Of a stretch of 64,000 nucleotides of DNA, positions 28,141-61,068 are shown piece by piece (position 1 is the stretch's first letter; every line of letters starts with the position of its first letter). The translations under genes and the position numbers were made by a program. This DNA comes from Mesostigma viride (Eukaryota; Streptophyta; Mesostigmatophyceae; Mesostigmatales; Mesostigmataceae), in NCBI GenBank assembly GCA_009746045.1, contig RPFO01002254.1, positions 1 through 64,000 on the forward strand, read 5' to 3'. Below the pieces are notes generated by a model. It was not told where the DNA came from, made no database searches, and saw only the letters and a list, made by a program, of their open reading frames with translations.

Positions 28141-28859
28141 TCACCACTTGGCGGCGGCGGCGCGCCGACCATTGTCCCTCCCGTACGTGCGCAGCAGCTC
28201 GTACAAACTCTGCGTGAGCCGCTCAAGCGACATGGGCTTGGTCATGAACGCGTCCACCCCGGCCTCAAAGCACCGCCGCTTGGTGTCGTTATCCGCGTTG
28301 GCTGTGAGCACGACCACGATGGGCACAGGCTTGCCCCCCGCGCGCGCGCCCTGCCGTATGCGCTTGCACACCTCGATCCCGTCCATGTCCGGCATGCATA
28401 GGTCCAGCAGCAACACGCTGGGCTGCTCTATACTTGGGTCCGCGAGCCGGTCGAGGCACTCCTGCCCGCTCTCCGCCATGTCGATGCGGCAGCCAGCTTT
28501 ATCCAGCAGTGCGCGCGTGACCATGCGGTTGATGCGGTTGTCGTCGCAGACAAGCACCAGCTGGTCGCGCAGCGCCTCCTGCGCTGTGACCGCATCCACC
28601 ACCACGCCTTTGCGCCGCCAATCAGCACCCGCAGCCGGTTTCAGCAGCTTGATGACAAAGGTAAGCGTGGAGCCCTTGCCTGGCCCCTCGCTCTCGATCC
28701 AGATGGCGCCGTCCATCAGCGCAACGAAGCGCTTGGAGATGGACAGACTGGGGGGGGGAGGAAGGGGGGGGGAAGGGGACAAGCAAGATTGGTGTGGTGT
28801 GGGTTGATATAAAGTTGGTCAGGGGGGAGAAACAGGGGTCAGAAGCAAGTGTGAGTCCG

Positions 28860-28933
<74 letters not shown>

Positions 28934-31900
28934 GGAAGGGGGGGGAGAAGGGAAAAGCAGGGCGAGGGGCAGCGTGGAGGGGAACACACAGGCCAAGGTG
29001 GATATCAAAATATGGAACGGCAGGTAGGTAGGAACAACCGAGTTCAGCACCACCCAATCCTTACCATATCTTTTTCATTACAGGCACCCAGACTACTGGG
29101 GTACAGGTGTAGCGCGTAGCACGTACCCCCCAACCCTCCCTCACATCTCACAGCCACGGATGCCCATGGCACCGACGAAGAAAGCAAATACAGATGAGCC
29201 GCACAAAAGTGGTATCGTTGGAATCATCCAATCCAGCAGCAGCGGCAGCATCTGATAGCTGGCAGGCAGGCAGGCAGCACAGCCACTGCAACCAGATCGC
29301 ACGACCTGCGTCCACCCTTTCCCTTCTAAGGCCTTGCATACGGTCCTCGCCCATGCAGGTCATTTCATGATGTCCACCAGCAGGCCATCCCATCATCATA
29401 AGGTGCACCCAAAGCCACCCTTGGTCACGGCCACCTACCCCAGGCCTGTTCCACGGAACTGCCGCGTGGTGGACGAGTCAGCCTGCACAAACTTGTTGAA
29501 GAGGCGAGGGATGTCCTCCGCCGCCAGCCCCACGCCCGTGTCCTTGACAACCACCTTGAGCAGCACGTGGTTGTCCCAGCCGCCGTCGCCACCTGGAGCG
29601 TTGCAGGGGGACGACCGCACGCTGGACCAGCCACCAGGGGAGTCGGACATGGGTTCCCCCCGGAGTAACGATGACGCGGCCGTGGAGGGAGGCTCCCCCA
29701 CCGCCAGGGACATGCTGGGGCTGGCCACCGTGGGCCCGCCGACTATGCCTCCAGTGGTGTACGAGGGGGCCGAGTGGCCCGGCCCGCTGTTGAACAAGGA
29801 GAGGGAGGGCGTGTGGTGCGACGAGGGCGAGGCATCTGGGGCAGAGACACGCAGGTGGTGGAGCCCTTCCTGCGGCGGGCCACTGCTGCGCGATAGCCCT
29901 TGGTTGCTGCTGTTGCTGTTGCCGATGCCGCAAGCGCTGGTATCGCGGTTAATGCTGCCGACGTGCACGCCACCACCCAGTGGATTATACCCGCCACCAC
30001 CCCCGCTGCCTCCCTGCTGGTGGAACCCGCCCCCCCCTCCGCTGCCGTGATGGTGCGAGTGCGGCGCATGCGCGCCCGCGAGGTTGCGGTGGTTGCTGCT
30101 GTCCAGCCCATAGCCCATGGTCTTGGAGCGTACCATGGAGCCACCGCCCAGGCCCCCACCGGACGCGTACGGTGCCCCCCCATGCACCCCATGGCCATGC
30201 TGCGGCGCCGCTGAGGGGTACAGAATGGACCCCCCCTGGGAGGTGGGTGTGGCGGGTCCCGCCCCCACGTGCTGGCTTGACCCCTGTCGGGTCATTCCCC
30301 CTTTCTCCATGCGCGGCCGCGGGGGCAGCGCGGCGCTCGGGTTGAACAGAACGGGGGTGGTGTGGCTGCGCGTGAGGCCGCCACCCCCCACAGCGCCCGC
30401 GCGCGCCACATGCTGCTGCACCTGCTGTGCCACCTCCGAATCGGCGGGGATAAAGCTCCCCGTCTTGGTGTCCCGCCACCCAAACACACCACTCTTCTGG
30501 CGCTGCATGCCCACCACGGGCGCCACGGGCGGAGGCGGCACAAACGACGAGTCCGCCATGACCATCTCCTTGCCGATGCTGGCCTGCCGGGTGAGCGGGC
30601 CACCCACGCCTGGGGTTATACTGACGCCTGCCCCGCTGGGCTGGCGCTGCATCATCCCCCCACCCATGGGCCCACCGGGAATGCCTGAGCTGGTGACCCC
30701 GGCCATGAGCGTGGGCGCGCCACTGATCATGCTGCCACTGGACTGGCGCTGCATGCCGCCACCAGACGCGCCGCCACTGCCGGCATTCGTCACCACGCTG
30801 GAGCTAGGCTGTCGCTGCAACCCGCCGCCACCACCACGCTGGATCACACTTGAGCTGGGCTGACGCTGCAGGCCCGCCCCGCCGGCCCCCCCGGCCATGC
30901 CCCCCCCAAGTGCACCCGCATTCAGGATGCTGTTGCTGGGTTGTCGCATAAGGCCCCCGCCCCCTCCCCCGCCCACCATCCCGCTGCTGGGCTGTCGCAT
31001 CATGCCCCCCACCATGCCCACCCTGCCAGGGGACCTGGGGCTATTCTCACCACTCAACGTGTCCCCTTGCTGCAACGCGCGCGCAAACACGCACCCTCCC
31101 GCTGCCGCCGCTGCCATCATCCCGCTGCCACCAAACGCGGCCGCGCCGGCCATCCCCCCGCCCCCCAATTCCCCCCCCATGCCCTGCTGCATCGACCACG
31201 GCCGAATGGTCTGCACGCCGCGGCCCTCCTCCACCACTGACAACGCCGTGTTGGAGCGCTGCATCATCGTCTCGCGGTCCATCATCTCTACACGGTCCTC
31301 GCTGTCCGCCGACACCATGCGGCGGCCGAACGTGAGGCTGCTCTGCCGCACCAGCTGGCCGGGGGCGGTCACCTGCCGCGTCAACCCTTGCCCTGGCCCT
31401 GGCGCCGCGTCCTTGGCAACCGCGCGACCCGTGGGCGACATGGGCGCGTTGTCCCGCCCTGTCGCGCTCGCCGACTTGCTGACAAGCTCAGCCGTTGCTG
31501 CCACCACAGCCGCCGCCACGCTCGGCTTCAACCCTGGCGCCACCAGTGCGCCGCCCACCATGCCCAGTGTGTTCTGCCACCCGCCCCCGTTGCCAGCCTC
31601 CCCGCTGCCCCCTGAACTGTCCACTCGCCCGCCGGCCAATGCCATCAGCCCCCCCCCGATGGCCCCCCCAATCGCGCCTGACCGGTTGGGCAGCAACCGC
31701 GTGCCGGCTCCCCCGCCGACAAACAGTGCACCCTCATCAACGCCCCTTGCGGGCCCCACCGCGGTGTACATGGTGTCGTCATCATCATCCTCCATGACAC
31801 CCCCGGGCACGCTAAGCCCTTGCCCTGCGCCCTGCCGCGCCGCCTGCAGCGCCCGATTCGCACCGCCCCCCTGCGACAGTATGCGCGCCTGCATTTGCAC

Positions 31901-34900
31901 CTGCGCCTGCGCCTGCGCCTGCACCTGCACCTGCGCCTGCGCCTGCGCCTGCGCCTGCAGCTGGGCTTGCATCTGCATCTGTGCCTGGAGGCCCACGCCG
32001 AGCGGCGGGCCCCCTTGGAACACGGGGCTTAGCTGCGAGAGCGTCTTGTAGTTGCTCTGCGTGAAGTAGCGGGGCCCCGCGAGAGACTTACTGCGCGGCA
32101 AGTCCGAAAAGGATACCAGCTCGCCCACCACGCTGCCGCCGTCGCTGCTGCCCCCGTCCTCGGAGACCGTCGACGCGCTCGCCACGCTATTGCTGCTGGC
32201 AAACTTCTGCGAAGGGCTGCCCACCACGGCGTCACCCCCACCCCTACCCCCGGCCCCGGCCACGGACAAAGAGGTCCCCATGCTGGACTGGGACGCGGCG
32301 CGGTCGACCATGGTCGCGGCGATCACGTCATTCACCGAGCTGAATGACTGAAGCGTGGTACTGGCGCCCACGTACCACTCATCCTCGTCGTCGGCCCCCA
32401 GCAGCTCCGTGTTCGCCGCCAGCGTGGACACGTGGCGCAAGCTCGCGTGCCGTTGCCGCGCCGACATGGCCCCGCTGTTCCCCCCCGCGCCCACGTTGCC
32501 CGTACCGATCGCCCCCCGTGCGCCCACCGCGGTGATGACCGGGGATGACGCAAACCGACTCAACACCCCCCCCGTGTTGGACCGTTGCGGCACGGGCAGC
32601 GCCTTCACGCCCATACGTTCTGCCGCGTCCCGGACCTGCGGGTCGTAGCTGTACACGCGCGGCGCAGAGGTTGATGACGTGATCACCTGGCCCACCAGGG
32701 GGGACACCTCTGGGTCCAACGGGCCCACAAACCACTCGTCGTCGTCCTCGCTCGACCCGCGGGACTCACGCATCATCGTCGTCGCAATCGCCTTCACAGC
32801 AGCTGCTGCCGCCACTGCCTTTGGGTTGGTGGGGCCCTGGGGGCCCGAACGAGCCCCCATTGTGGCTGCTGTCGTCGCCGTAGTGGTACCTGCTGCAGAA
32901 GCCGACGCCTCCCCTTGCGGCGGCTTGGCCACCGAGGGCTGCGCGGCCACTTCCTGCGCGGGCGTGGGCGCGGCAGGCCGTTCCTGCTTGGTGGGGGGCT
33001 CCAGCACGTCCGCCAATTGGGCTGTCCGGACCTTGGGTGATGTGGAGGCGCCAGTAGCCACGACCGCAGGCGCTGCTACTGCTACCGGTGCAGGTGCAGG
33101 CGCGGGCGCAGGCGCCGTTTTGTCCCCAAAGTACCACTCGTCACCGTCGTCATCGCCATCTGCCAGAAGCGCACGCAGGTCCAGCGGCCGCTGCGGCTGA
33201 GGCTGCCGCAGCGATCCCTGATGTGACGGCGGCGGCTGCTGCTGCTGCTGTGGCTGATCTTTTTGTTCTTGCGCTGCGGTGGCCGCTCCCTTCTTGTCCT
33301 TGTCCTTGCCGTGGTCACTGGCGTCCCCACCAAGAAGACCTGCAGCAACTTCCCTGCTGGCCGCCACAACCGGTGCCATTACCGCCGTCTCGGCCGGCGC
33401 AGCATCTTCGCCTCCATGACCCTCCGCCGTGGTGGTGGCCGACTCCTCACTATCCACCGAGCGGCCGCCAAGGCTGCTTGCGCGCAGCAACCCACCATGT
33501 CCCTGCGAGGGTGAGGGGGATGGGCATCGCACCGACACCGGTGACGATGTCTCGTCCGAGTTGCGCGCCGACAGGCTGCGCAGCACCGTCCCGGGGCCAA
33601 AGTCGCGCCGCTCCTGCTTGACCAGGCCGGGCGAAGGCGGCTGCTTGAACAGGCCAGGCAACTGCGGCTGCGACGGCGGCTGCAGGACCGCCGGCAGGGC
33701 AGGTATCTGCGGGACCGCAGGCGATGCGGATGGGGACGCCTGCGGCTGGGCCATGGGTGCCGGCGACTGCGTTGCCTGCGGGGCCACGGGGGGTGCGGCC
33801 AAGAGTGACGCCGCTTGCCTGCGCAGCGCGGGGGGCGGAACCTCCTCTGCCTGCTCCCCAAAGAACCACTCGTCGTCGTCACCCAGCAGCTCCCGCAGTG
33901 CCTGCGCTGACGCCTGTTTCTGCGTCAGCGCCATGCCCATGCGCGCCGGGGCAGCTGTGCCGGATGGGGCACCACCCGCGATGGCGTCGGTGCGGGCTTG
34001 AACGCTGGCCTCTAGCCTCACAGGCTCCTCGGCAGAGGCACCCTGGGAAGCTGGCGCCTGCCCTGCCCCTGATGTGCGGGCACCTGCACCACCCGTGGCG
34101 GGGAGGGGTGCCGCGGCACCCGTTGTTGATGAAAAAGAGGATGGTGAAGGGGTCACACCCACATTGCTATTGGCATCTACCACGCTGGCACCAGCAGCCA
34201 TGAAGGCAGTACCAGAAGTAGCGGTGGCGGCCAAAGGTGTGGCTGAGCCAGCAGCAGACGGTGTGGTGTCCCTTTCCGTGCAATTGGAGCCCTTCTCTGC
34301 CCGCGCGTCCCCTGACTGCGACACCCCTGTTGTGGCAGCCTTGGTAGCTGTCGAGGTGGCCGCTGCGCTTGACACCTCGGCCTTGTTGCCCACGTCCCCA
34401 CTGTGCCGGGCCAAGCTATTACTGGCGTCTGCGCTGGCCTTGTCCAAGGGACTGATGCACTCCCCGTCTGAATGCGAGACATCCCCCACGGCGTTGTCGT
34501 TGCTGCGGCGCCCCACCGGTTTCCCTCTCCCACCCGCGCTGGTTTCGTCGCCCTTCCCCGCCCCAGAGGCACCGCTCTGATTGGCCGGGCACTTGGCCAT
34601 GATGGCGCCATACTCCTCTGGCGTCAGCACGCTCACATCCACGCTCACGCTCCCCTTGTCGGTGAACTTGACACTGTTCGAGATCACGTTGAGCAGCGTC
34701 TGCGTGAGCCGGTTCTTGTCCCCAGCCACCTGCGGGGGCACCCTCGGGTCCATCGCCACGTCCACCGCGACATTCTTCAGCATTGCGATCGGCTGCACCA
34801 GCGAGTGGACCAGCGAGAGCACGTCCCCAAGGTCAAACAGCTCCGTGTCCAGTTCCACCGACCCGCTCTCTAGCCGCCCCACGTCAAGCACGTCATCCAC

Positions 34901-37900
34901 CAGCATGCCCAGCAGCGTGGACGACTCGTTGATCGTCTTCACGTACACGCGCTGCTGGGCTGAGAGCGGCGTCTCCTCGAGCAGCGAGCATGCCGCCACG
35001 ATTGCATGCATGGGGGTGCGCATCTCTGTGGGTGGGTGGGGGGCGGGGATGGAGGTAGGCAAGCAATTTGAAGGGAGGGGAAGCCAGGCAGGCCGTTTGG
35101 GTGGGGTGGGGAGAGGGAAGGAAGGCGATTTGGAAGGGAGGCCGGGGGGGGCAAACGGAGTGCAGCAAAGGGCCCATGGCGAGGCAAATAGGTTAGTGCG
35201 TGGGTTGCATCGGAGGGGCAGAAGGGGGGGGGGGGGGGATGGCGAGAAGCTTTGGGAATGTGGTCTGTATCAGGCGCATCACGGCTGGCATTGTGTGTGA
35301 GCGGGCCTGGGGAAAACCGTGGGGCCGCATGCTTTGGGTGCGTGGCATGCTCCACAGGTGGCGTCCATGTGGCACCGTGGTGGCTCATCACAGCAGCTCA
35401 CCAAACCATCCTGTCGCTGCAAAACAAAAGACTTGACTGCTTCTCCCCCACCGGTTGCAAGTAAAGCCTTCGTGTACTCCACTGGCCCTACTATGTACAT
35501 GTGCATAATTATCGCACGAAGACTTCGAAGGATTCTTGTTAAGTGTACAGGAACTCTTAGGGATTGCTTTACACTGTATGCGCCGTGGCAAACGCCATGC
35601 GATGGCTGGAAAGGCTTCATTTATGTTTGCCAGGGCTCCTGAGGATACTACTTTGTGCTGTGCCAGGCCAAGGTGAGGGTATTGGGGGGGCATGTGCGGG
35701 AGTAATGCGTACATAATGCTGAGTACTGATATTAGCAAGCAAACTGGGCTGCACGTTCGTATTTGAGCAGAGTCTGCTAGCACAAGAAGCCACAGCGAAC
35801 ACCCGCACCCTCCCCATGCAGCTCCGTTGCAGGTGGTTGCATTGCCATGCGCACCCGCACACCCATGCATTACCAACCTAGCACTAGCCAACCAACCCAA
35901 TGTGGTGGGCATTGCGTGGGGCCCAGCCACTGCGGTTGACCATATTGCCAGAACCCGCTCACCGTGGTTAACGATGCACAAAAAGTCGGTGCGGCTCTTC
36001 TCGAGCGCTTCCCGCTGGTTGTGTGCCTGCTGCTCCGCCTCGCTCTTGAGCAGCGCCTCCTCCAGCATGCGGCCAAGGATCTCCACCGCGGACACCTGGC
36101 GCATGCGGCCGTAGGCAGGAAAGCGATGGGCATATGAGGGGAATGAGGTGGCAGGCAGTGCAGGGTATGGGGCATATGCAACCAAACTTTGTATGCGACC
36201 AATGTGCCTAAGAGACCAGGGCAGAAGGCATACGAGGCAAGGCCAGTGTGCATGAGGCAGCGCACGGACCAGCACCAGGCCGATAAGCATGATGCAACAC
36301 AGACGGCAAGAGGTTTTACGCGAGACAGTGGGATGGATATAGAGCGAATAAAACACCAACTTCAGGCAATAGCACAGAGTACAACATAGAGTATTACCAT
36401 AAAATTAGCCATGCGTCTCTGCGGGGCAAAGGAGCGCCCGATGGTCCTAGCCGTCAGGCAAGGACCATGCACCATGCACCATGATCATGGTCCACACATG
36501 CATCCCACCGTTGGCACGGGAGGGCTCACGCTGGGCCATGCGGGATAAAGCAGGTCTGCAGTACCTGCCGCGAACCCACCCACCCACCCGCCTGCCCGCC
36601 CGCCCGCCCGCCCGCCCGCCCGCCCGCCGCCCGCCCGCCCGCCCGCCCGCCCGCCCGCCCGCCCGCCCGCCCGCCCGCCCGCCCGCCCGCCCGCCCGCCG
36701 CCCGCCGCCCGCCCGCCCGCCGCCCGCCCGCCCGCCCGCCCGCCCGCCGCCGCCGCCCGCCCGCCCGCCCGCCGCCCGCCCGCCCGCCCGCCCGCCCGCC
36801 GCCCGCCCGCCCGCCCGCCCGCCCGCCCGCCCGCCGCCCGCCCGCCGCCCGCCGCCCGCCTGCCCGCCCACCCACCCACCCACCCACCCACCCACCCACC
36901 CACCCACCCACCCACCCACCCACCCACCCACCCACCCACCCACCCACCCACCCACCCACCCACCCACCCACCCACCCACCCACCCACCCACCCACCCACC
37001 TACCAACCCGCCCGCCAAGCAAGCAAGGTACTACCCAGAAAGCCACACGGCCGAGAAGAGGGCAGTCTGAACTAGGGTATGGCATAGACGGCAGGATCCC
37101 AGCTGATAAAGAGACGCGCCTTCCCTCCCCCAGAAAGAAAAACCCTCCTCTTCTCCTTTCCCTTCCCAAGAAATAAACAATCCTACCCCACGCCGCAAGC
37201 GCACCCCTATCCCCAGGCTATCAGCTGCTGCCTCACCTCACCCACGCCAGACCCATAAGCGCTACCCTGCCCCCCCTTCCCATCAGCACACCTGCGCCAC
37301 CCTCCAGCACAGATACACATAAATCCACCGCAAACCCACCCCGCACAGCAAACTCAACCGTCACCGGCAAGAGCGAGCACGCCACTTACCTTCCATGCAC
37401 GCATCCGCCACCACAATACCTGCGAAAGGTGGCATGCCAAGTACCCTTGATGGCGAGCAGGCCAGATCCCTGCACACGCACATGCGGCACGCACCTGTGA
37501 TAGCGAGCAGGCCAGCTGGTCAGCCACCACCTCCACCAGGTGCTGCGCCTCCTCCACTGAGAGTGCGCCCACCATGGCCCCATCCCCGCTGCTGCCGCCC
37601 ACCACCCCCCCCTCCACCATTGTGAGACTCTCCCCACAGCTCTCAAAGCTGCGACGGGACTTGCGCACCGTAGTGCTGCTGCCACCCGCGCTCGACCCGT
37701 ACCCTGCAGGGCACACCCCCGCGCCCGCCCGCGCAGGGACCTCCCCCGCGGGTGGCGCAGCGTCTGACATGGATGACCCCGCTGCCGGTGGGGGCAGCTG
37801 GACCAGCAATATACCATAGATCACGCTCTCCTGCTTAAGTTCGCGGAACACGTGCTGCACCAGCAGGGCCACGTCGGGCTGAGCCGACCCGTTCCCCTTG

Positions 37901-38379
37901 AGCGCGGACGCTGGCTCCGGCGCTTGCGGCTCTGCGCGGGGAAAGGGCACCCTCACCGCCGCAACCGTCGCGAGATCACCGGCCACCGCTGAGCCCTTGT
38001 CTGTGCCGTCGCCCAGCAGCGTCCACAGTGACGCCCACGCCCAGGGCGCGGAGAGCGGCGCCACGTCCCTGTGCACGGTGGCCCCGCGCGCGTACAGTAT
38101 CTTGGTCACCATGGGGTGGCGCGACGACACCTCGGCCATAAGAGGGCTGGAGACTGTGCCGCGCGCCAGCACGTGCGTGCAGCGCAGCGCTTTTCCCCCC
38201 ACGTGCGGCGCCCACATCATGGCCGCCGCATCCGGCAGCACGCGCCCCAGCTCCCGCAGCATGGTGGCAACGATGGAACCGCGGTCCGACGGCAGGGGCT
38301 CCCCGTTGGCGCGGTGCTGGCTGCTGTCGCCCGCGTCCCCTGGCCTGGCACTGGACCCCGTGGCCTTGGAGGTATCCTG
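28141..38379 (-). CDS. Ethylene-receptor-like hybrid histidine kinase (5' part not found)
   Basis: Four exons are supported: 38379-37495 (GAF), 36095-35963 (linker and H-box), 35025-29439 and 28747-28141. All introns are GT-AG and the joins are in frame, giving 2,403 codons. The GAF part has VATMLRELGRVLPDA and HLVEVVADQLACSLSQ, which match plant ETR1. The join of exons 2 and 3 creates NHEMRTPMHAI with the phosphoacceptor His. The N-box (NSVKF), DTGVG, FNKF and GTGLG boxes are intact. The receiver has CDDN, the phospho-Asp in LLLDLCMPDMDG, LTAN and MTKP. All catalytic residues are present, so kinase and phosphorelay activity is expected. About 1,690 residues are inserted between the N-box and DTG box. 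No exon for an ethylene-binding membrane domain was recognised upstream, so ligand binding is unproven. The acceptor at 38379 is phase 0; using 38376 is equally possible. Confidence 0.88.
28857..28931. repeat. (TG)n microsatellite in the last kinase intron
   Basis: About 36 uninterrupted TG dinucleotides inside the 691-base intron 29438-28748, flanked by G-rich runs. Confidence 0.95.
29567..34627 (-). other. Low-complexity insertion inside the kinase ATPase domain
   Basis: This part of the third kinase exon encodes about 1,690 residues rich in Gly, Ala, Ser, Pro and Gln, with no intron and no stop. It contains four acidic-aromatic motifs of the form DDEW(F/Y)(F/V)G, near 33870, 33140, 32730 and 32380. 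A Gln-Ala/Val/Met tract lies at about 31880-31980. From 31400 to 30250 there are about ten (L/M)xRQ(P/S/A)S-type motifs. The insertion sits where plant ETR1 has a short loop between the N-box strand and the DxG strand. It is likely disordered and surface-exposed. Regular phosphosite-like motifs suggest regulation by kinases or adaptors, which is inference. Confidence 0.85.
36576..37003. repeat. (CCCG)n then (CCCA)n tetranucleotide tract in kinase intron
   Basis: A (CCCG)n-type stretch with CCG slips (to about 36866) passes directly into more than 30 copies of CCCA (to about 37003). It lies in the 1.4 kb intron 37494-36096. On the transcribed strand it is a continuous series of GGG runs, so it could form G-quadruplexes. 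The proline- and glycine-rich open frames through it are artefacts. Confidence 0.95.
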
Positions 38380-38761: not shown

Positions 38762-39056
38762 CTACCTTGACCAGCTACCTAGGTTACCGTTACCTTGACC
38801 AGCTACCTAGGTTACCATTACCTTGACCAGCTACCTAGGTTACCGTTACCTTGACCAGCTACCGAGGTTACCGTTACCTTGACCAGCTACCGAGGTTACC
38901 GCTACCTTGACCAGCTACCGAGGTTACCGTTACCTTGACCAGCTACTGAGGTTACCGTTACCTTGACCAGCTACCGAGGTTACCGTTACCTTGACCAGCT
39001 ACCGAGGTTACCGTTACCTTGACCAGCTACCGAGGTTACCATTACCTTGACCAGCT
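38762..39056. repeat. 28 bp minisatellite, ~10.5 copies
   Basis: The unit is ACCTTGACCAGCTACC(T/G)AGG followed by TTACC(G/A)TT, with only a few point differences among copies. It lies about 380 bases upstream of the first recognised kinase exon, in sequence that may be an intron or 5' flank of that gene. Confidence 0.92.
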
Positions 39057-42399: not shown

Positions 42400-43850
42400 C
42401 TAGAGGGGGATATAATCCTGATTTGAGCTGTCCTCTACTGTAAGGGCAGATGAGGCGGTAGTGTAGCGGCTATCCTCAGGGGCAATAACCTCCACCTGAG
42501 GACTTCTACCCTGCATTCTACATGTGGTCAGTGGGGCCGGTGGGGAGAAAACAGGAGCATGCCCCACAGGAAGGTGCTTATCGCAGACGGCAGCCCATTT
42601 CTCCTTGTCTATCATGCGTGCGCGGAGTACAGATAATCCCAGAAGCCCTGCATCCTCAAGCCATTGTGTCAGATAGGTCCGGGTCGCACCGTGTCGGTGC
42701 GGGGCGCGCACAAGTTTGCCAGTGGGTTGCGACAGGGCAAAAGGACCCTGCCATAGGAGGTGTCTACCTGGTTGGCCAGTCCTAAGCCCGACCGCAGGGC
42801 CCACATCGGTATTCACCTGGTCTGTGCGGGCAAGATGGCATGTCCGGCAAAGAGGAGACGGCGGTCAGGCGGATGGTATGGTTGACCATAGCAATGAAGA
42901 GGGAGCTCGCAGTAGAGTTCGGCCCGGATGCGGCGCTCTTGGTAGCGGACACGGAGGATGTGACGGAGCATTCGAGTGACTGTGCCGTCAAGCTGCTTGC
43001 TCAGCGCCTGGTCTAGGGTCCACGCCTCGCAGCCGTACAGGAGGATGCTGAGGACAAGGGCCTTGATCAGAATGCGCTTGTGCCGCTCACTCAGATAGCG
43101 ACATGTCCAGAACTTGTCGAGGCAGCGGAGGGCCGCCCAGGCCTGGCCAATATGCGGGTGTTGATGTCATCAGCCGTGGAGGGGAGCCAGCTGCCGAGGA
43201 GCTTGAAGCGAGTCGCCGGGGGGACGGGGCTGCCGTCCAGCAGGAGGGTGGGTGGGGTGGTCCCAGCAGGGAAGCCGATGGCCATGACCTCCGTTTTCTT
43301 GCTGATCATAAGCCCCACCGCCCGTGCTTCCAGTGACAAGCTATCTAGCCAGAGTTGGGCGGACTCCGGGGTCTTTACAACCGTCGTGTCATCAGCGTAG
43401 ATCAGATCGCTCATGTCGGTAGGGCGGGTCAACCCCGCCGTAGCTGGAATACTCCGTGGTCTCGATCCCCGGCAGGCGCCCCTTCACCCGGGCAAAGCGG
43501 GCTTGTGCACGCCTCACAATATAGTCCACCATAATGATGAATAGATATGGGGAGAGCACACAGCCCTGCCACACCCCGGTGTGCACGGGGAATGCCGGAG
43601 CGGTATACGGACCTGGGCTTGGGACCCAACTAGGAACTCGGGGGTGGTAAAAAAGTGGTAAAAGTGGTGTAAAAGTGGGTAGTAAAAGTGGTAACATGTG
43701 GTGAAATGGATTGATCTCGGCGGCAAGTGTCTCCACCTCCTCCGCGTGTGTGGCAGTATATGCTTGGGTAAGCCGCTCATGGTATCACGGGTACACGTCC
43801 TCCGGCCGCAGCGGCGGGCCTGCACTAGCGCCAGCCGGGCAGTGATCACC
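42400..43850 (-). pseudogene. LINE reverse transcriptase, frameshifted
   Basis: Reading leftward there are the RT motif GVWQGCVLSPYLF and then the catalytic LIYADDTT in another frame (one-base shift near 43435). LGSWLPSTADDINTRI follows, then, after a further frame change, YLSERHKRILIKA and LLYGCEAWTLDQALSKQ. A C-terminal frame ends near 42402 with YLTQWLEDAGL. This is the RT domain and tail of a non-LTR retrotransposon that would copy its RNA at a nicked target. At least two frameshifts make it inactive. The endonuclease and 5' part were not recognised. The ORF1-like gene at 45179-46468 on the same strand may have belonged to it. Confidence 0.85.
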
Positions 43851-44214
43851 CGGGCGCAGTCGCCCTGGCGAACCTACATAGCTGGTCCGAGCGCGATTTC
43901 GACGTCAACAGGTTATTTTCCGCCTTTGACGTTGGCGCGGGCCCCGCTTTTTTCAACAGCCCCCAATCAAGATACTGGAGCTCGTGTTTTATGGGTCGCA
44001 CGCCTCGGTCCTTGCCCTGTGCCAGCAGCTGGAAGCCAAAATGCGCCTCCGCAACGGAGTAGACGGCCGGTTTTCCCACCGCCGACCTCCTAGTGACCAC
44101 CTGCCCGCCGGGTTGGTCCCGTCCTCGCCTTCACGGCTCGCCGCTCTCTTTTCCATCCTTAATTTAGGGCTCTGCCGACTACCTCTGGGTCCCCTCCCCC
44201 TTGACCGCATCCTT

Positions 44215-44463
44215 TTAGCCCCAGGTCGCGTGTTCGGGCCGGTGCGCCCGCCCCCAACTCCAGCACATCATTCTTAACTCCGTTCTCATGCGCTCTGATG
44301 GCGAGATCTTGGCTCCATCCATTTCGACGCACTCACACTCTGCTCCATCCTTACGGAAGCCCTCCAGCAGCACGTGACTCCCCTCGCTGCAGATGTGGCA
44401 GCAATGCCCGGAGGCGTACTGTACGCTGGCTACTGAGCTCCCTCACCTTTCCACCACCGTCAC
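44215..44463 (+). pseudogene. Remnant of LINE ORF1, opposite orientation
   Basis: On the plus strand a broken frame reads SILTEALQQHVTPLAADVAA with flanking ORF1-like residues, matching the minus-strand protein at 45767-46468 (SILTEAFQQHVTPLAADVAA). It contains stops and ends exactly where the MITE-like element begins, so it was probably cut by that insertion. Confidence 0.75.
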
Positions 44464-44464
44464 A

Positions 44465-44645
44465 GTTAGGTTAATATTGTGCGGAACCTTTTGCCACTTC
44501 AATGGCTAATTTTCTTAGGACCGCGTTCCGCACACCGGCATGAACTTGAGTTTAGGTCAGCGAGTGGTACGTTGAATCGCTGGTAATATTGTGCGGAACC
44601 TTAGAAGCCGAGTGGCAAAAGGTTTCCGCGTAACTAAAACCTAGC
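44465..44645. mobile_element. MITE-like element, copy 1
   Basis: One end reads AGTTAGGTTAATATTGTGCGGAACC-type sequence, continuing into TTTTGCCACT. The other end has the inverted form, AGTGGCAAAAGG followed by TTTCCGCGTAACTAAAACC. A second internal GTGCGGAACCTTAGAAG block is present. The same element recurs in opposite orientation at 46885-47030. It has no coding capacity, so mobilisation would depend on another element. Confidence 0.7.
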
Positions 44646-45178
44646 CGGCTGGCCTCTTGGGCCGGAGGACGAATCACTAGGCTCGGAATTAATTAATTAA
44701 ATAATTAATTAGGAACATAACTCCGTTGGGAGTACATGTAGCACATATCCCCGAGAAGGGGCATATGGCTACTTTTTTTTCATTCTGGGCCACTTCCTGC
44801 AAGGGTGGGAATGTGAGCTACACTTGCTCTAGGTGCGCCAGGGCACCTGCACCCCCATGATCTAGCAAGCTATTCCCAGCTTAGGGGGAGCCTGTCATGT
44901 GGGGGAAGATCATCATGGCTATACAAGAGCTAGGGCATGGCTTCTCACCAGAGAGCGTCTCTCTGAATAGGCGTAGCATGGCTAAATTCTTAATGCTACA
45001 TCCATGGGAGGTCCCATTATAGGCATGGTTTGGCTAGATTCTGAAGGCATCATCCATGGGGGCCATTATGGGCGCACATGCGCGTGGGCCACATGCAAGG
45101 CTAAGCCTGACTAGTCTACACTACTGGTGATATATTCCCTAGTCTGAGGTGGCAGGAGGTGCCTGCCAGGGCTTGTGG
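44646..45178. other. Spacer without recognised features
   Basis: Mixed sequence with a TTAATTAATTAA run at its left end. GGCATGGTTTGGCTAGATTCT-like wording recurs loosely near 44975 and 45030, suggesting a small old duplication. No gene is supported. Confidence 0.45.
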
Positions 45179-46468
45179 TCAACGTGGATGATCGACCGCC
45201 CCCCTCCAGTATACCGGCTTCCCCCCTGCGCTCTGCCGGAGCTGAAAGTAGGTCGGCCATTGCTCGCGTCGCCGCTGTTGCTGGGCCAGGGTCAAGTCGT
45301 CGTCCAGCGTGAAGCGAGTCCCCGAGAGCTTCTTGCGGCCTTTAAGGAACGACAGCTTGTCCGCCATGTACTTAAAGGTGAGGAGCACGGGTGCCGGGCC
45401 AGCCTTGCCCCGCGCGCGGGGGAGGCGGACAGCCGACATCCGCAGCTCACCAATGAGTTGCATGGGGGCAAGAATGTCGCGCTTAAATGCCGTGAGAAGA
45501 GTCGTCGAGGTCTCACCTACCGGCTGGTCGAAGTGCTTGACGATGGCATTGTGGCTGTGCTGGGTGATGTCGGCCTCCTCGCGAAGGTCGAGGGCTTGTT
45601 GCTTGAGCTGCGGTGCCGCGATGGTGGAGGTGGTGGAGGTGGTATGATGCTTAAGCAAGTCCGCGCCCAGGTGGAGGGAGCATCGCTGGCCGGGCCAGCA
45701 GGTGCCGGCTGGGCAGCGATGTCCTTCACCGCCCGGGCGGTGAGGCCGGCGGTGTCATGCAAGCTCTCAAGGGCGGTGGCGGTGGCTTAATTGGAGGCGC
45801 TGGTCGAGGTCGCGAGGAGCTGGCTGGGCCGTGATGTCGGCGGCAGTGGAGGCGGAAATGGCAGTGGAGGTGGAGGCGACGGTGGTGGAAAGGTGAGGAA
45901 GCTCAGCAGCCAGCGTGCCGCCCAGTGCTGCTACGTCGGCAGCAAGGGGAGTCACGTGCTGCTGAAAGGCTTCCGTAAGGATGGAACGGAGGGTGGGGGC
46001 GGAGATGGAAGGAGCCCAGATCTCGCCATCAGAGCAGAGCGCATGAGGAGGGAGGGTGATGTGTTGGAGTTGGGGGCGGGCGCACCCGAACAGAAAGTTG
46101 GCCGGTCCGCTGACCCAGGTGCCGTCGGGGTGGATGAGGCGGTTGATGTCGTGGAGATGGAGGCACAGGTCGTAAAGCAAGGCGTAGTCCCCGTAGAAGA
46201 GGCAATGCATAGCATCGCTCGGGGACATGTTGGTCCAGTCTTGATCGTCGACCTTGAAAGGTTGGGGCCGAAAGCGCGGTTCTGTGGGGCGTGAAAACCC
46301 TCCTGTTTTGTCGGCTGGGCGGCTGCGTTTAGGGTCAGGCGATGCCGATGACGAGGCATTAAGCCCGGGAGGGTTCGGGGCGACCACCAGTGCTTGACTA
46401 GTGTCACCGCTGCCTGCCGGACCTGATCGAGGGCGAAGCTGCAGCCGGAGCTGCAGACGTATTTTCAT
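45179..46468 (-). pseudogene. Retrotransposon ORF1-like protein, frameshifted
   Basis: The first frame (46468-45767) begins with basic, Pro/Ser-rich sequence, then DAMHCLFYGDYALLYDLCLH and SILTEAFQQHVTPLAADVAA, and ends in Ala/Thr-rich sequence. A second frame (45658-45179) ends with GTRFTLDDDLTLAQQQRR, then EQWPTYFQLRQSAGGKPVYW. That ending resembles the C-terminal domain of L1 ORF1 (Transposase_22-type) proteins, which bind the element RNA. At least one and probably two frameshifts lie between 45770 and 45650. Another remnant lies at 44215-44463 on the other strand. Confidence 0.7.
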
Positions 46469-46574
46469 GGCCTAGCGCAGCCGCCAGGCTGCATTGCGTC
46501 GAGGAGCGTTTGCTCGTCATATATTGCGTAATAGCTTCGGAAATTTATATCAGCATGTGCGTCTTAGAAAGACG

Positions 46575-46668
46575 AAGCGATTGTGATATTCACAGCCGAA
46601 TTCGGTGCTCAAACGTGAAAGTTATGAGCTCCGCCGTCAGCCATGGCTACCTCGTGGCTCGTGGCTCG
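46575..46668. repeat. Dispersed ~90 bp repeat, copy 2
   Basis: Matches 26799-26890 over GATATTCAC, GCTCAAACGTGAAAGTTATG and the CTCGTGGCTCGTGG end, with scattered substitutions and a two-base indel. It lies about 100 bases upstream of the ORF1-like gene. Confidence 0.7.
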
Positions 46669-46884
46669 TGGCTGTTAGGCTCGGAACACCCGCAGATATG
46701 AATATGAATTTGAGCGCAATTGTTGCGCAAATATGGATATGAATGTATGAGCGCAATGTTGTGCCGATATCAGTGGATATGACTTTGGGCGCCGAGGGCG
46801 CCGCAGCTAGGCCGGTGCCAAATCAGGACGAAATAATTATCCGGCTCCGAGTTGATTCAAACCTGCGCCCCGAAGGGTCAAAGG

Positions 46885-47030
46885 TCTTAGTTAGGTTAAT
46901 ATATTTGTGCGGAAACCTTTTGCCACTCGGCTTCTAAGGTTCCGGCCGCACATGCAGTATTACCAGCGATAACCACTCGCTGGTACACTCAAGTTCATGC
47001 CGGCATTCACCGCCCCGACATTACCATACA
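46885..47030. mobile_element. MITE-like element, copy 2 (inverted)
   Basis: Starts TTAGTTAGGTTAATATATTTG and continues GTGCGGAAACCTTTTGCCAC, TCGGCTTCTAAGGTTCC and CACTCAAGTTCATGCCGG, which is the reverse complement order of the copy at 44465-44645. The right end is less complete. The two copies bracket the ORF1-like pseudogene as an inverted pair about 2.2 kb apart. Confidence 0.7.
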
Positions 47031-47044
47031 TTATTATGCTTGTT

Positions 47045-47480
47045 GACTATACGATGGGGCAGGGTTGCCACCTGCTCATCGATGTCTCCGTGGCTCGGCC
47101 GCTCTCCGGTTGCCACATCCTCCACGCGGCTCATGGATGCCGGCGCTGCAGCCGCTGTGGCTGAGCGCGACAAGCTTGCCTCCTACGGCAAATTATGTGG
47201 GGCCCCACCGGGTCATCCCCCCCTATGTAAATGTCCTTGAGGAGTTCGGGGCCATGGATGGGCCCCAAGACGGCGGAGTTTTTCCACGAGTGCTGCCATG
47301 CAGCGCCGTGAAGACCGCGCCTCGACCTTGATGGTCAGACCACCCCGTGGTCTGCCCGCACGTGGTCCTCGTATTGGCGGCAGTCCCCCTCACTCGCACC
47401 GTGGCTGATCAGTGTTATTCCGTCGCACCCGGGCCGACTTTGTCGCGACCCATGCGGCCAGTCTAGATCCCTCCCAGGCC
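47045..47480 (+). pseudogene. Decayed 3' end of RLE retrotransposon, plus orientation
   Basis: Broken frames encode CHLLIDVSVARPL, then EERDK/AERDK-like and LASYG sequence, VLEEFGAM, FFHECC and WSARTWSSYWRQ. These match in order the C-terminal endonuclease region of the element at 49109-53619 (HLLIDVSVARPL, LEEFGAM, FFKECC, WSARTWTSYWRQ). Many stops and frame changes show an old insertion in the opposite direction. Confidence 0.8.
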
Positions 47481-47689
47481 TGCATGGTGCATGGGCCGGC
47501 AGCAATGTTGCTGCGTGCATGTCGTAGACTCGTAGTTTTGTGATGTAGTTAGTTGTGCAGCTGGCGCGTGATCCTTGGATGTCCGGCCGTGTCAGATTAT
47601 TATTAATTTCTTCAGGGTTCTTCTTCTTTTCGGGTTTTTCCTTATGTTGCATATGCCAATCTCACCTCCGTACTTTATCATTCTCAATG

Positions 47690-48957
47690 AATATATATTA
47701 AAAATATAATTACTTACAGCAGAGTGAAATCATTCAAACCAAAGCAAACGCCCAGCTATAAACCTAATAATATACAGAGCCATGTCAAAGCTCTGTATAC
47801 TACGATAAGACCAACAATGGAAACTCCTAACGGGAGGAGTTCACCTAATAGCCCTGCTGCACCGCAAAATCAGCCCGCGTACGGCGGAGCTAGCATGATG
47901 TCAGCCATGGCCCGAGTCAGCGCCACCGACAAGGGCTGACGCCAATATGACGTCCATGCAGGTCCGCGCCGACCATGGGGCCCGCTAGGGCTCCCTCCAG
48001 GTCCAGCCGGTCCTCCCGGAGCCGGCAACACTCCTTGAAGAAGGCAGAGGTCAGGGGCCCCATATGGCCCCAAACTCCTCCAGGACAAAGGGCACCACAC
48101 GATGGTGCCCGACGTCGCCGTAGGCCAGGAGCTTGGCCCGCTCCGCCCGGTCCGCCGTGTAACCTGCCGTGAGGGAGGCCCCAGCCACGTGGCTAAGAGC
48201 CAAGGGCCGCGCCACCGAAACGTCAATAAGCAGATGCCGGCCACCCCCCTCAAAGTCCAGCACCACGATGTCAGGCCGGTGGTACGTTGGGGGAATAGAA
48301 GGCAGCGCCATCCGCATCCTCGGACCGGATGTTCGCGTGGGGGAAAACCGACCGAACCATGGCGAGCACCACCGTCAGGAGGACAGTGTGCAAATACATA
48401 CACATACCAATTCTGATTCTGTTGGCCCCCCATGCAGGCAAGGTAGTGAGTCCCCATGGGATCCAGCGGCTGCCCACAGCTACCACAAGGCCGCCCCGCC
48501 CGCCCGGCCGGAACAAGAGGCTGCGGGGCAAATAGCTGGTGCCGGAGCGCCACCGAGTAGTGGCTGGGAGCTAAGGCGAATGGGGGGGCCATGGGAAGAG
48601 CACGAAGGTACGCCGAGCCCACACTCCGCAATTATTAAAGCGAGAACAGCCACGCACGTCCCTGGGCGTTGAGGTCCGCAAAAAGAGCCATCCAAATCAG
48701 CCGTGTGCAGAATACCCGCGTAGGTTTTCTGGTGTTTATCGATGACGCGAGCAGGGAATGCGGCGGGAGATTGAACGGAGGCGACCGAGGGAGTGCCGCG
48801 AGGGAGGCGGCGCTGTACCGCCTGAGCGGCACGGACGGGAGAACAGGCCTGCTGGATCTCAGCATAGGCCTCCTGGATGGCGGTGGCGAAGGGCAAAAGG
48901 CTGCTGGGGTCCAGGAGGTCAGGCGCTGCCGTTGCATATCTGGGGCATGAGCCGGCA
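47690..48957 (-). mobile_element. RLE retrotransposon, 5'-truncated copy A
   Basis: Nearly identical to the last 1.2 kb of the copy beginning at 48965, including the 3' untranslated end and TA-rich tail (TTAAAAATATAATTACTTAC on the plus strand). It is cut at its 5' side (48957), directly against the tail of copy B. The coding frame is destroyed by about a dozen short insertions, mostly of two to four bases, relative to copy B. 5' truncation and TA-rich tails fit target-primed reverse transcription. Confidence 0.88.
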
Positions 48958-58802: not shown

Positions 58803-61068
58803 GGTACCGCCTGCCGTCCGGCACTTTGAAGCCCGCCGGTGCTATAATTCCTATCGTCCACGCATGTTTTCCCCTGCCTCAAACCGCACGTTGCATTTAA
58901 ATCTGGAGCCCAAAATTCACTGAAAACGTGTGCCAGCCGGTAGCAAACTGGGCCAAGCTGCCACGGAGTGGTGGTACCGCCTGCCGTCCGGCACTTTGAA
59001 GCCCGCCGGTGCTATAATTCCTATCGTCCACGCATGTTTTCCCCTGCCTCAAACCGCACGTTGCATTTAAATCTGGAGCCCAAAATTCACTGAAAACGTG
59101 TGCCAGCCGGTAGCAAACTGGGCCAAGCTGCCACGGAGTGGTGGTACCGCCTGCATGCCGTCCGGCACTTTGAAGCCCGCCGGTGCTATAATTCCTATCG
59201 TCCACGCATGTTTTCCCCTGCCTCAAACCGCACGTTGCATTTAAATCTGGAGCCCAAAATTCACTGAAAACGTGTGCCAGCCGGTAGCAAACTGGGCCAA
59301 GCTGCCACGGAGTGGTGGTACCGCCTGCCGTCCGGCACTTTGAAGCCCGCCGGTGCTATAATTCCTATCGTCCACGCATGTTTTCCCCTGCCTCAAACCG
59401 CACGTTGCATTTAAATCTGGAGCCCAAAATTCACTGAAAACGTGTGCCAGCCGGTAGCAAACTGGGCCAAGCTGCCACGGAGTGGTGGTACCGCCTGCCG
59501 TCCGGCACTTTGAAGCCCGCCGGTGCTATAATTCCTATCGTCCACGCATGTTTTCCCCTGCCTCAAACCGCACGTTGCATTTAAATCTGGAGCCCAAAAT
59601 TCACTGAAAACGTGTGCCAGCCGGTAGCAAACTGGGCCAAGCTGCCACGGAGTGGTGGTACCGCCTGCCGTCCGGCACTTTGAAGCCCGCCGGTGCTATA
59701 ATTCCTATCGTCCACGCATGTTTTCCCCTGCCTCAAACCGCACGTTGCATTTAAATCTGGAGCCCAAAATTCACTGAAAACGTGTGCCAGCCGGTAGCAA
59801 ACTGGGCCAAGCTGCCACGGAGTGGTGGTACCGCCTGCCGTCCGGCACTTTGAAGCCCGCCGGTGCTATAATTCCTATCGTCCACGCATGTTTTCCCCTG
59901 CCTCAAACCGCACGTTGCATTTAAATCTGGAGCCCAAAATTCACTGAAAACGTGTGCCAGCCGGTAGCAAACTGGGCCAAGCTGCCACGGAGTGGTGGTA
60001 CCGCCTGCCGTCCGGCACTTTGAAGCCCGCCGGTGCTATAATTCCTATCGTCCACGCATGTTTTCCCCTGCCTCAAACCGCACGTTGCATTTAAATCTGG
60101 AGCCCAAAATTCACTGAAAACGTGTGCCAGCCGGTAGCAAACTGGGCCAAGCTGCCACGGAGTGGTGGTACCGCCTGCATGCCGTCCGGCACTTTGAAGC
60201 CCGCCGGTGCTATAATTCCTATCGTCCACGCATGTTTTCCCCTGCCTCAAACCGCACGTTGCATTTAAATCTGGAGCCCAAAATTCACTGAAAACGTGTG
60301 CCAGCCGGTAGCAAACTGGGCCAAGCTGCCACGGAGTGGTGGTACCGCCTGCCGTCCGGCACTTTGAAGCCCGCCGGTGCTATAATTCCTATCGTCCACG
60401 CATGTTTTCCCCTGCCTCAAACCGCACGTTGCATTTAAATCTGGAGCCCAAAATTCACTGAAAACGTGTGCCAGCCGGTAGCAAACTGGGCCAAGCTGCC
60501 ACGGAGTGGTGGTACCGCCTGCCGTCCGGCACTTTGAAGCCCGCCGGTGCTATAATTCCTATCGTCCACGCATGTTTTCCCCTGCCTCAAACCGCACGTT
60601 GCATTTAAATCTGGAGCCCAAAATTCACTGAAAACGTGTGCCAGCCGGTAGCAAACTGGGCCAAGCTGCCACGGAGTGGTGGTACCGCCTGCCGTCCGGC
60701 ACTTTGAAGCCCGCCGGTGCTATAATTCCTATCGTCCACGCATGTTTTCCCCTGCCTCAAACCGCACGTTGCATTTAAATCTGGAGCCCAAAATTCACTG
60801 AAAACGTGTGCCAGCCGGTAGCAAACTGGGCCAAGCTGCCACGGAGTGGTGGTACCGCCTGCATGCCGTCCGGCACTTTGAAGCCCGCCGGTGCTATAAT
60901 TCCTATCGTCCACGCATGTTTTCCCCTGCCTCAAACCGCACGTTGCATTTAAATCTGGAGCCCAAAATTCACTGAAAACGTGTGCCAGCCGGTAGCAAAC
61001 TGGGCCAAGCTGCCACGGAGTGGTGGTACCGCCTGCCGTCCGGCACTTTGAAGCCCGCCGGTGCTATA
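58803..61068. repeat. 170 bp tandem array, 13 units plus 44 bp
   Basis: Units start at GGTACCGCCTGC. Thirteen full units span 58803-61024: ten of 170 bases and three (59143, 60167, 60851) of 174, the latter having GCATGC where the others have GC near the unit start. Otherwise the units are almost identical. The array begins about 110 bases upstream of the PHD start codon and ends against a retrotransposon 3' fragment. It may supply promoter units for the element; no other gene is next to it. Confidence 0.95.

Follow-up and report, generated by a model that had tools for sequence, protein, structure and literature searches.

Plant cytokinin receptors carry an insert of more than 50 residues in the β2–β3 linker of their H-ATPase domain, on the face opposite the ATP site, and a shorter insert in the catalytic and ATP-binding (CA) domain of Caulobacter CckA forms a helix (both as given in an excerpt of PMC10779265). 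We describe here a hybrid histidine kinase gene on the minus strand of a 64,000-nucleotide stretch of DNA, positions 1 to 64,000 of contig RPFO01002254.1 (hereafter the window), whose domains as recognized by Pfam are HisKA, the second half of HATPase_c and a receiver. As read from the DNA, the kinase has a core resembling that of the ethylene receptor ETR1 and a low-complexity insert of 1,685 residues in its β2–β3 linker, all within one open exon. The host was taken for a volvocine alga in a first-pass annotation made from the sequence alone, which is probably wrong, as it appears to be Mesostigma viride, a streptophyte. Our preferred explanation, to which we give a probability of a little under one half (about 0.48), is that the insert may be a disordered loop for multisite Ser/Thr phosphorylation and docking, by which the kinase would be regulated.

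The insert and the motifs within it are located as follows.

29573..34627, minus strand: the insert, 1,685 in-frame residues in the CA β2–β3 linker, rich in G, A, S and P
30119..31384, minus strand: array holding 14 of the 15 [LM]xR[QS]x[ST] sites; the one remaining site begins at 32101
33857..33880, minus strand: acidic-aromatic repeat 1 (ALRELLGDDDEWFFGEQ)
33125..33160, minus strand: acidic-aromatic repeat 2 (DLRALLADGDDDGDEWYFGDK), gapped and missed by the DEW pattern
32723..32749, minus strand: acidic-aromatic repeat 3 (SSEDDDEWFVG)
32366..32392, minus strand: acidic-aromatic repeat 4 (TELLGADDEDEWYVG)

The existence of a giant in-frame insert in the CA domain is confirmed. It comprises residues 133–1817 of P0001, the translation of a minus-strand open frame of 1,944 codons (35269-29435), and spans 5,055 bases between the strand that follows the N box (NSVKFTDKGSVSVDVSV) and the strand that precedes the DTG box (HVLLKVVVKDTGVG). 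Alignment to these two strands places it in the β2–β3 linker, as is the case for the linker insert of cytokinin receptors. The first-pass annotation had reported about 1,690 uninterrupted codons between the two boxes in one exon, where ETR1 has a short loop, and both observations are borne out: the insert has 1,685 codons and no stop, and the linker of ETR1 has 16 residues, the matches stopping at 486 and restarting at 503, so that about 1,670 residues are extra here. Read in its other five frames, this stretch of 5,055 bases holds 35, 28, 30, 13 and 31 stops, and 200 simulations of an order-2 Markov model of this DNA gave a mean of 21 in-frame stops (minimum 7; longest open run 604 codons); the open frame is therefore not due to chance. 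The guanine-plus-cytosine (GC) content at the three codon positions, 0.69, 0.61 and 0.78 over the whole insert, resembles that of inserts in paralogous kinases of the same genome. The residues W, C, F, I, Y, V and L make up 17% of the insert compared with 36% of the kinase, a composition which suggests that the insert is mostly disordered, and no Pfam domain besides those of the kinase was found in P0001 at an E-value of 0.01.

The C-terminal part of the insert is marked by the [LM]xR[QS]x[ST] sites, 14 of the 15 falling inside residues 1214–1635. When the composition of the insert was shuffled 2,000 times, the mean was 0.22 sites and the maximum 3, and shuffles within blocks of 40 residues gave a mean of 0.24 and again a maximum of 3. 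The density amounts to 8.9 sites per 1,000 residues, as opposed to 0.11 in 259 control frames (89,411 residues), which were frames of at least 200 codons, coding or not, from all six frames of the window and of the loci fetched for comparison. The other five frames of the insert DNA contain 0, 0, 0, 0 and 1 site, and 14 paralogue inserts of more than 15 residues each, with 2,975 residues between them, contain a single site. Relative to Arg, Ser or Thr stands at +3 in 32 of 85 cases, an enrichment (p = 7e-6) that is not seen at +1, +2, +4, +5 or +6; given [LM]xR[QS], Ser/Thr occupies +3 in 15 of 17 cases (p = 4e-10). Seven paralogue inserts of at least 142 residues have no Ser/Thr bias at +3 of Arg. 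Enrichment of R-x-x-S/T as a property of the site itself was also considered and was rejected, the pattern being unenriched in two sets of paralogue loops, of six and of seven.

Around the 15 sites, hydrophobic residues occupy +3 in 8 cases (p = 0.002) and +4 in 9 (p = 4e-4), both more often than expected, and no other listed offset is enriched for them. The consensus of the AMPK/SnRK kinases consists of a hydrophobic residue at −5, Arg at −3, the acceptor Ser/Thr and a hydrophobic residue at +4. The −5, −3 and acceptor positions belong to the selecting pattern itself, and with the +4 residue hydrophobic at nine sites the layout of the array appears near to the AMPK/SnRK1 consensus. The acceptor codons come from three families (AGY 9, TCN 2 and ACN 4), and the DNA copies aligned by a repeat finder, three from the array and three from the acidic-aromatic (DEW) repeats, are 63–73% alike; for these two reasons, the array and the DEW motifs are not a young DNA repeat.

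The DEW repeats themselves, four in number and with DDDEW[FY]xG-like cores, lie at residues 382–886, and LL precedes three of them. A DEW DNA pattern has four matches in the genome (440 Mb), three of which are inside the insert, and the reversed pattern, as a control, has one. The sole other match of the DEW pattern (L028, G000:C2:4831220-4831239) is in a 66-residue frame (SSDEEWFVGEPEVSSG) of a repeat-rich region, and this frame is rather like repeat 3 of the insert (SSEDDDEWFVGPLDPEVS).

Inserts at the same site occur in other kinases of this genome. The genome searched has 439,911,974 bases in 2,243 contigs and contains 59 HisKA matches, 43 of them outside a contig, C2011, that is considered below; 23 same-genome loci (L009–L027 and L035–L038) were taken together with the window. 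The distance from the N-box Asn to the DTG Asp was counted only where N box and DTG fall in one open frame, and by our patterns seven of the 23 loci (L010, L011, L017, L020, L021, L024 and L027) have no such pair. In the 16 genes counted the distances are 32, 37, 49, 54, 70, 101, 105, 111, 121, 168, 168, 189, 194, 503, 647 and 859, and the window kinase, with 1,712, has the longest among the 17 same-genome genes; L019, and possibly also the uncounted L027, may not be algal. The corresponding distance is 43 in ETR1 and 35 and 30 in two kinases of C2011. L035–L038 were found by a search with the dimerization and histidine phosphotransfer (DHp) half of the window kinase and were chosen for their open frames of 1,000 residues or longer, which means that the sampling was not random; one of these four has a distance of 101, and the other three carry giant inserts.

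L035:26-3061: kinase with an N-to-D distance of 859
L036:1-1968: kinase with an N-to-D distance of 503
L037:1622-4021, minus strand: kinase with an N-to-D distance of 647

All three have in common with the window kinase a DHp, a giant in-frame insert at the same site, and DTG and F boxes in one exon which ends near the same position of the GTG box. Their inserts, however, are without blastp similarity to the window insert at 1e-3, without the LxRQxS array and without DEW repeats. Among themselves these inserts are common only in islands, L035 and L036 sharing a Cys island (SPCERCxGxG..RCPCGA) which looks metal-binding, and L035 and L037 sharing SRLAAxVARWxxxRR. Across these gene sequences the linker reads as an insertion-tolerant site that has been expanded to differing lengths in other kinases of the genome. 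The earlier suggestion that the insert is “tolerated or used” is upheld by the long in-frame inserts at the same loop in at least three other kinase genes and by the position-specific, non-random motif array in the window insert.

The exons of the gene, in the direction of transcription, are listed below.

37495..38379, minus strand: GAF-like exon upstream of the kinase; the 3' end reads LVEVVADQLACSLSQ then GTGCGT, the 5' edge is approximate, and the splice edges were judged by eye
35963..36095, minus strand: linker-helix exon, ending in the H box (..RTDFLCIVNH then E); the 5' edge is a guess
29439..35025, minus strand: large single exon with the DHp from the residue after the His, the first CA half, the insert, the DTG and F boxes and most of the GTG box; donor GG then GTAGGT
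28141..28747, minus strand: last exon, with the end of the GTG box, the end of the CA domain, the receiver (LLLDLCMPDMDG, TKP) and the stop

The phospho-accepting His is encoded by the linker-helix exon and not by the large exon, a codon at the NH/E junction being split between 35963 and 35025 (NH, then EMRTPMH across the intron). The GTG box is interrupted by an intron within its final Gly codon (GGC CTG GG, then GTAGGT), and the exon resumes at 28747. The N, G1, F and G2 boxes are all present as NSVKF, DTGVG, FNKF and GTGLG then L, with G2 finished in the next exon, and so is the receiver Asp (LLLDLCMPDMDG, TKP). Pfam E-values are 1.6e-10 for HisKA, 4.5e-10 for the second half of HATPase_c and 1.3e-25 for Response_reg. 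The annotated intactness of the DHp, boxes and receiver thus stands as regards the presence of all boxes, HisKA and the receiver, but needs correction in that the GTG box is split by an intron and the His lies in the preceding exon. With the ETR1 query, tblastn matched 35026-34628 (DHp and first CA half) at 47% over 133 residues (E = 6e-32), 29572-29438 (DTG/F part) at 49% over 45 residues, and 28746-28192 (last CA part and receiver) at 35% (E = 3e-30). The similarity is clear, and the description “very close to plant ETR1” can be kept at most for the first two parts, not for the last exon. The GAF-like exon gave a weak match (E = 0.04, or 0.004 with BLOSUM45) and is without a Pfam match. Among protein structures, the two matched stretches of the best phmmer match, PDB 7p8e, are separated by 76 residues (175 to 252) and those of the second, PDB 7z8n, by 7; PDB 4pl9 and 4mt8 also match the kinase.

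Several tandem repeats were seen in the same part of the window and beyond it. A four-base repeat (CCCG, partly CCCA) fills 442 bases at 36575-37016, upstream of the linker exon, and is probably intronic. A 28-base unit is repeated in 10.5 copies at 38763-39056 (96% matches), and a 170-base unit in 13.3 copies at 58803-61068 (98% matches).

How such a kinase might function can be outlined as follows. The two CA halves would still pair into a working ATPase, with the loop ends leaving the fold side by side and away from the nucleotide, and it is because both ends exit side by side that the insert would be tolerated. In this gene the loop may have been turned into a signalling platform, with a C-terminal part in which Ser/Thr sites of AMPK/SnRK/CDPK type would form a multisite phosphorylation array and an N-terminal part that would offer four acidic-aromatic docking motifs. 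The change in charge, or the binding of a partner (14-3-3 or other), could then modulate the kinase or its preference among phosphorelay partners, and Ser/Thr-kinase signalling would thereby be joined to His-Asp signalling. That the insert is translated and disordered, that the CA halves pair, that the array is phosphorylated and that the output of the kinase is affected are all steps that we infer from sequence. A scaffold role for the insert, which the first-pass annotation had raised, is possible.

A number of observations weigh against a regulatory phosphorylation loop. The +4 hydrophobic residue is absent in 6 of the 15 sites, and an excerpt of PMC5066223 attributes LxRxxS to PKA. The motifs were defined after the sequence had been read, although the conditional Ser/Thr test and the hydrophobic test are less circular. 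Three 600-base blocks in the N-terminal part of the insert (starts 34423, 33823 and 33223) show no rise in third-position GC, and the insert has a charge-hydropathy value of 0.464, which lies on the folded side of the 0.415 border. The paralogue inserts are without the array, so motif function is not a property of the linker site. In the trio L009, L012 and L013, the ratio of non-synonymous to synonymous substitution rates (dN/dS) is 0.75–1.25 in the loop versus 0.00–0.05 in the next 75 CA codons, and 0.43–0.78 in the stretch beyond those codons. Because the loop of the trio is near-neutral, loop sequence of this kind can be weakly constrained. Moreover, the L012 loop has an internal tandem duplication of 26–27 residues that is absent from its close sisters L009 and L013; from this and the dN/dS values it follows that the loop gains and changes sequence freely, at least in these three genes.

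The main rival explanation, which we consider possible, is a neutral ratchet, in which a tolerant linker would have been lengthened by GC-rich slippage and small duplications, with selection keeping the frame only and the insert serving no particular function. The loop dN/dS of about 1 in the trio and the L012 duplication favour it, and the broad series of lengths across the 17 genes fits it equally, as do the simple composition of the window insert and the (QA)n and similar slippage tracts present in it. It is harder to reconcile with a position-specific array in the coding frame of this one gene, or with DEW repeats that are nearly unique in the genome; and the absence of the array from paralogue inserts of 477–833 residues means that it is not the usual filler at this site. 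Alternative splicing of an exitron-like kind seems improbable to us. All or part of the insert would then be absent from some or most transcripts, and the short form would be the working kinase. Two GTGAG donors at the end of the first CA half (34648 and 34636) speak for it, and in-frame pairs under strict rules could remove up to 2.6 kb (34648-32056) or 3.2 kb (33450-30210), but the strict scan (GTRAG donors, at least 11 of 14 pyrimidines) found no pair removing the whole insert and none near 29573. That scan cannot dismiss splicing, because it misses the gene's own donors GTAGGT and GTGCGT, and looser rules do give in-frame pairs which would remove nearly all of the insert (34613-29786, 34533-29592 and 34648-29869), a further point against the phosphorylation loop. 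The sites in these pairs are weak, however, being GTATGG, GTGGGA or an acceptor in which 7 of 14 bases are pyrimidines, and the frame without stops, together with motifs confined to the protein frame, indicates that the insert is probably translated at least partly.

A pseudogene, a mobile-element insertion or an assembly artefact is very unlikely. Retroelement-like reading frames upstream in the window (43–48 kb) would favour such a reading, but the open frame, kinase boxes, receiver and splice sites are all intact, and same-site inserts in other genes occur on contigs of 3.1–12.1 Mb. A mobile element is further opposed by a search of the genome DNA with the insert, which skips very common words and returned 35 matches, namely the insert itself and 34 limited to two simple-repeat tracts (query 2713–2834 and 1412–1526). 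A second haplotype copy of the insert was likewise sought, and none was seen in that search with its omission of common words. To the eye, the frames at 42800-48600 of the window resemble pieces of reverse-transcriptase-type retroelements, one example being LSPYLFIIMVDYIV near 43.5 kb. As for a regulatory lid over the ATP site, the ATP lid of the CA domain is located after the F box, and the F-box-to-GTG segment is short in this kinase (FNKFVQADSSTTRQFRGTGLG). The lid had been proposed in the first-pass annotation, and the insert does fall inside the CA domain; but the β2–β3 linker of cytokinin receptors is reported on the face opposite the nucleotide (excerpt of PMC10779265), which makes such a role hardly credible, and we reject it on topology.

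The phosphorylation-loop explanation can be extended to a bolder model, which we hold to be doubtful. The linker would be a phospho-antenna of about 1,700 residues, on which AMPK/SnRK or Ca2+-dependent kinases would write at about 15 LxRQxS sites within the catalytic domain of a histidine kinase, and split-CA kinases would together make up a class, possibly confined to one lineage, whose members hold different inserts (phospho-array, Cys island) in one socket. If this is true, energy or calcium signalling would be wired directly into a two-component relay, and the β2–β3 linker would be a general socket for very large modules with the ATPase fold kept. It would also provide a testable route by which Ser/Thr-kinase pathways and His-Asp phosphorelays could communicate, and, should the genome be that of Mesostigma, one placed close to the base of the streptophytes. 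Even if neutral, the insert would be an extreme case, with 1,685 residues of low-complexity sequence splitting a catalytic domain, the frame kept open, and a graded series of paralogues in one genome.

The designation of the gene as ethylene-receptor-like is supported by the kinase core and not by the N-terminal region, as searches with PF25487 and the ETR1 N-terminus, run without a positive control, detected no ethylene-binding domain in either the 67.4-kb contig or the genome. The domain has 97 residues, and introns could break it in genome searches. Given the missing control and the statement, in an excerpt of PMC7027972, that the ethylene pathway of Mesostigma viride is almost complete, the absence of the domain is unproven. 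Contig C2011 of the algal assembly (at least 1.3 Mb) is bacterial-looking, with unbroken kinase frames, among them several histidine-kinase frames of 940–970 residues with equal hidden Markov model scores. According to an excerpt of PMC9098888, the genome of a Rickettsia-related symbiont was assembled from reads of Mesostigma viride NIES-296, and C2011 is perhaps a symbiont known from Mesostigma. The rbcL of the genome scored highest, at 1,053 bits, with PDB chain 1gk8 (Chlamydomonas), and land-plant chains such as 4hhh (pea) reached 1,031, a difference that does not separate chlorophyte from streptophyte.

Literature searches for sizeable inserts in the ATP domain of histidine kinases, or in proteins of algae, turned up no title on a giant insert, and none of 12 pattern matches in IMG/VR encodes a relative. 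The closest described systems each share one side of the present case. ETR1 and ERS1 are alike in the kinase core (identity to ETR1 47–49% across the large exon, in its DHp and both CA parts, and 35% for the last exon), in the receiver and perhaps in the weakly matching GAF-like exon; they differ by the 16-residue linker of ETR1 and by their ethylene-binding domain, which the searches without a positive control did not find in the contig or the genome. The CA insert of Caulobacter CckA is short and folded, whereas the insert here is giant and of low complexity. Plant cytokinin receptors (AHK/CHK) have their insert at the same site of the CA domain as the window kinase, but here it measures 1,685 residues rather than tens, is of low complexity, carries a phosphosite-like array and is set in an ETR1-like core.

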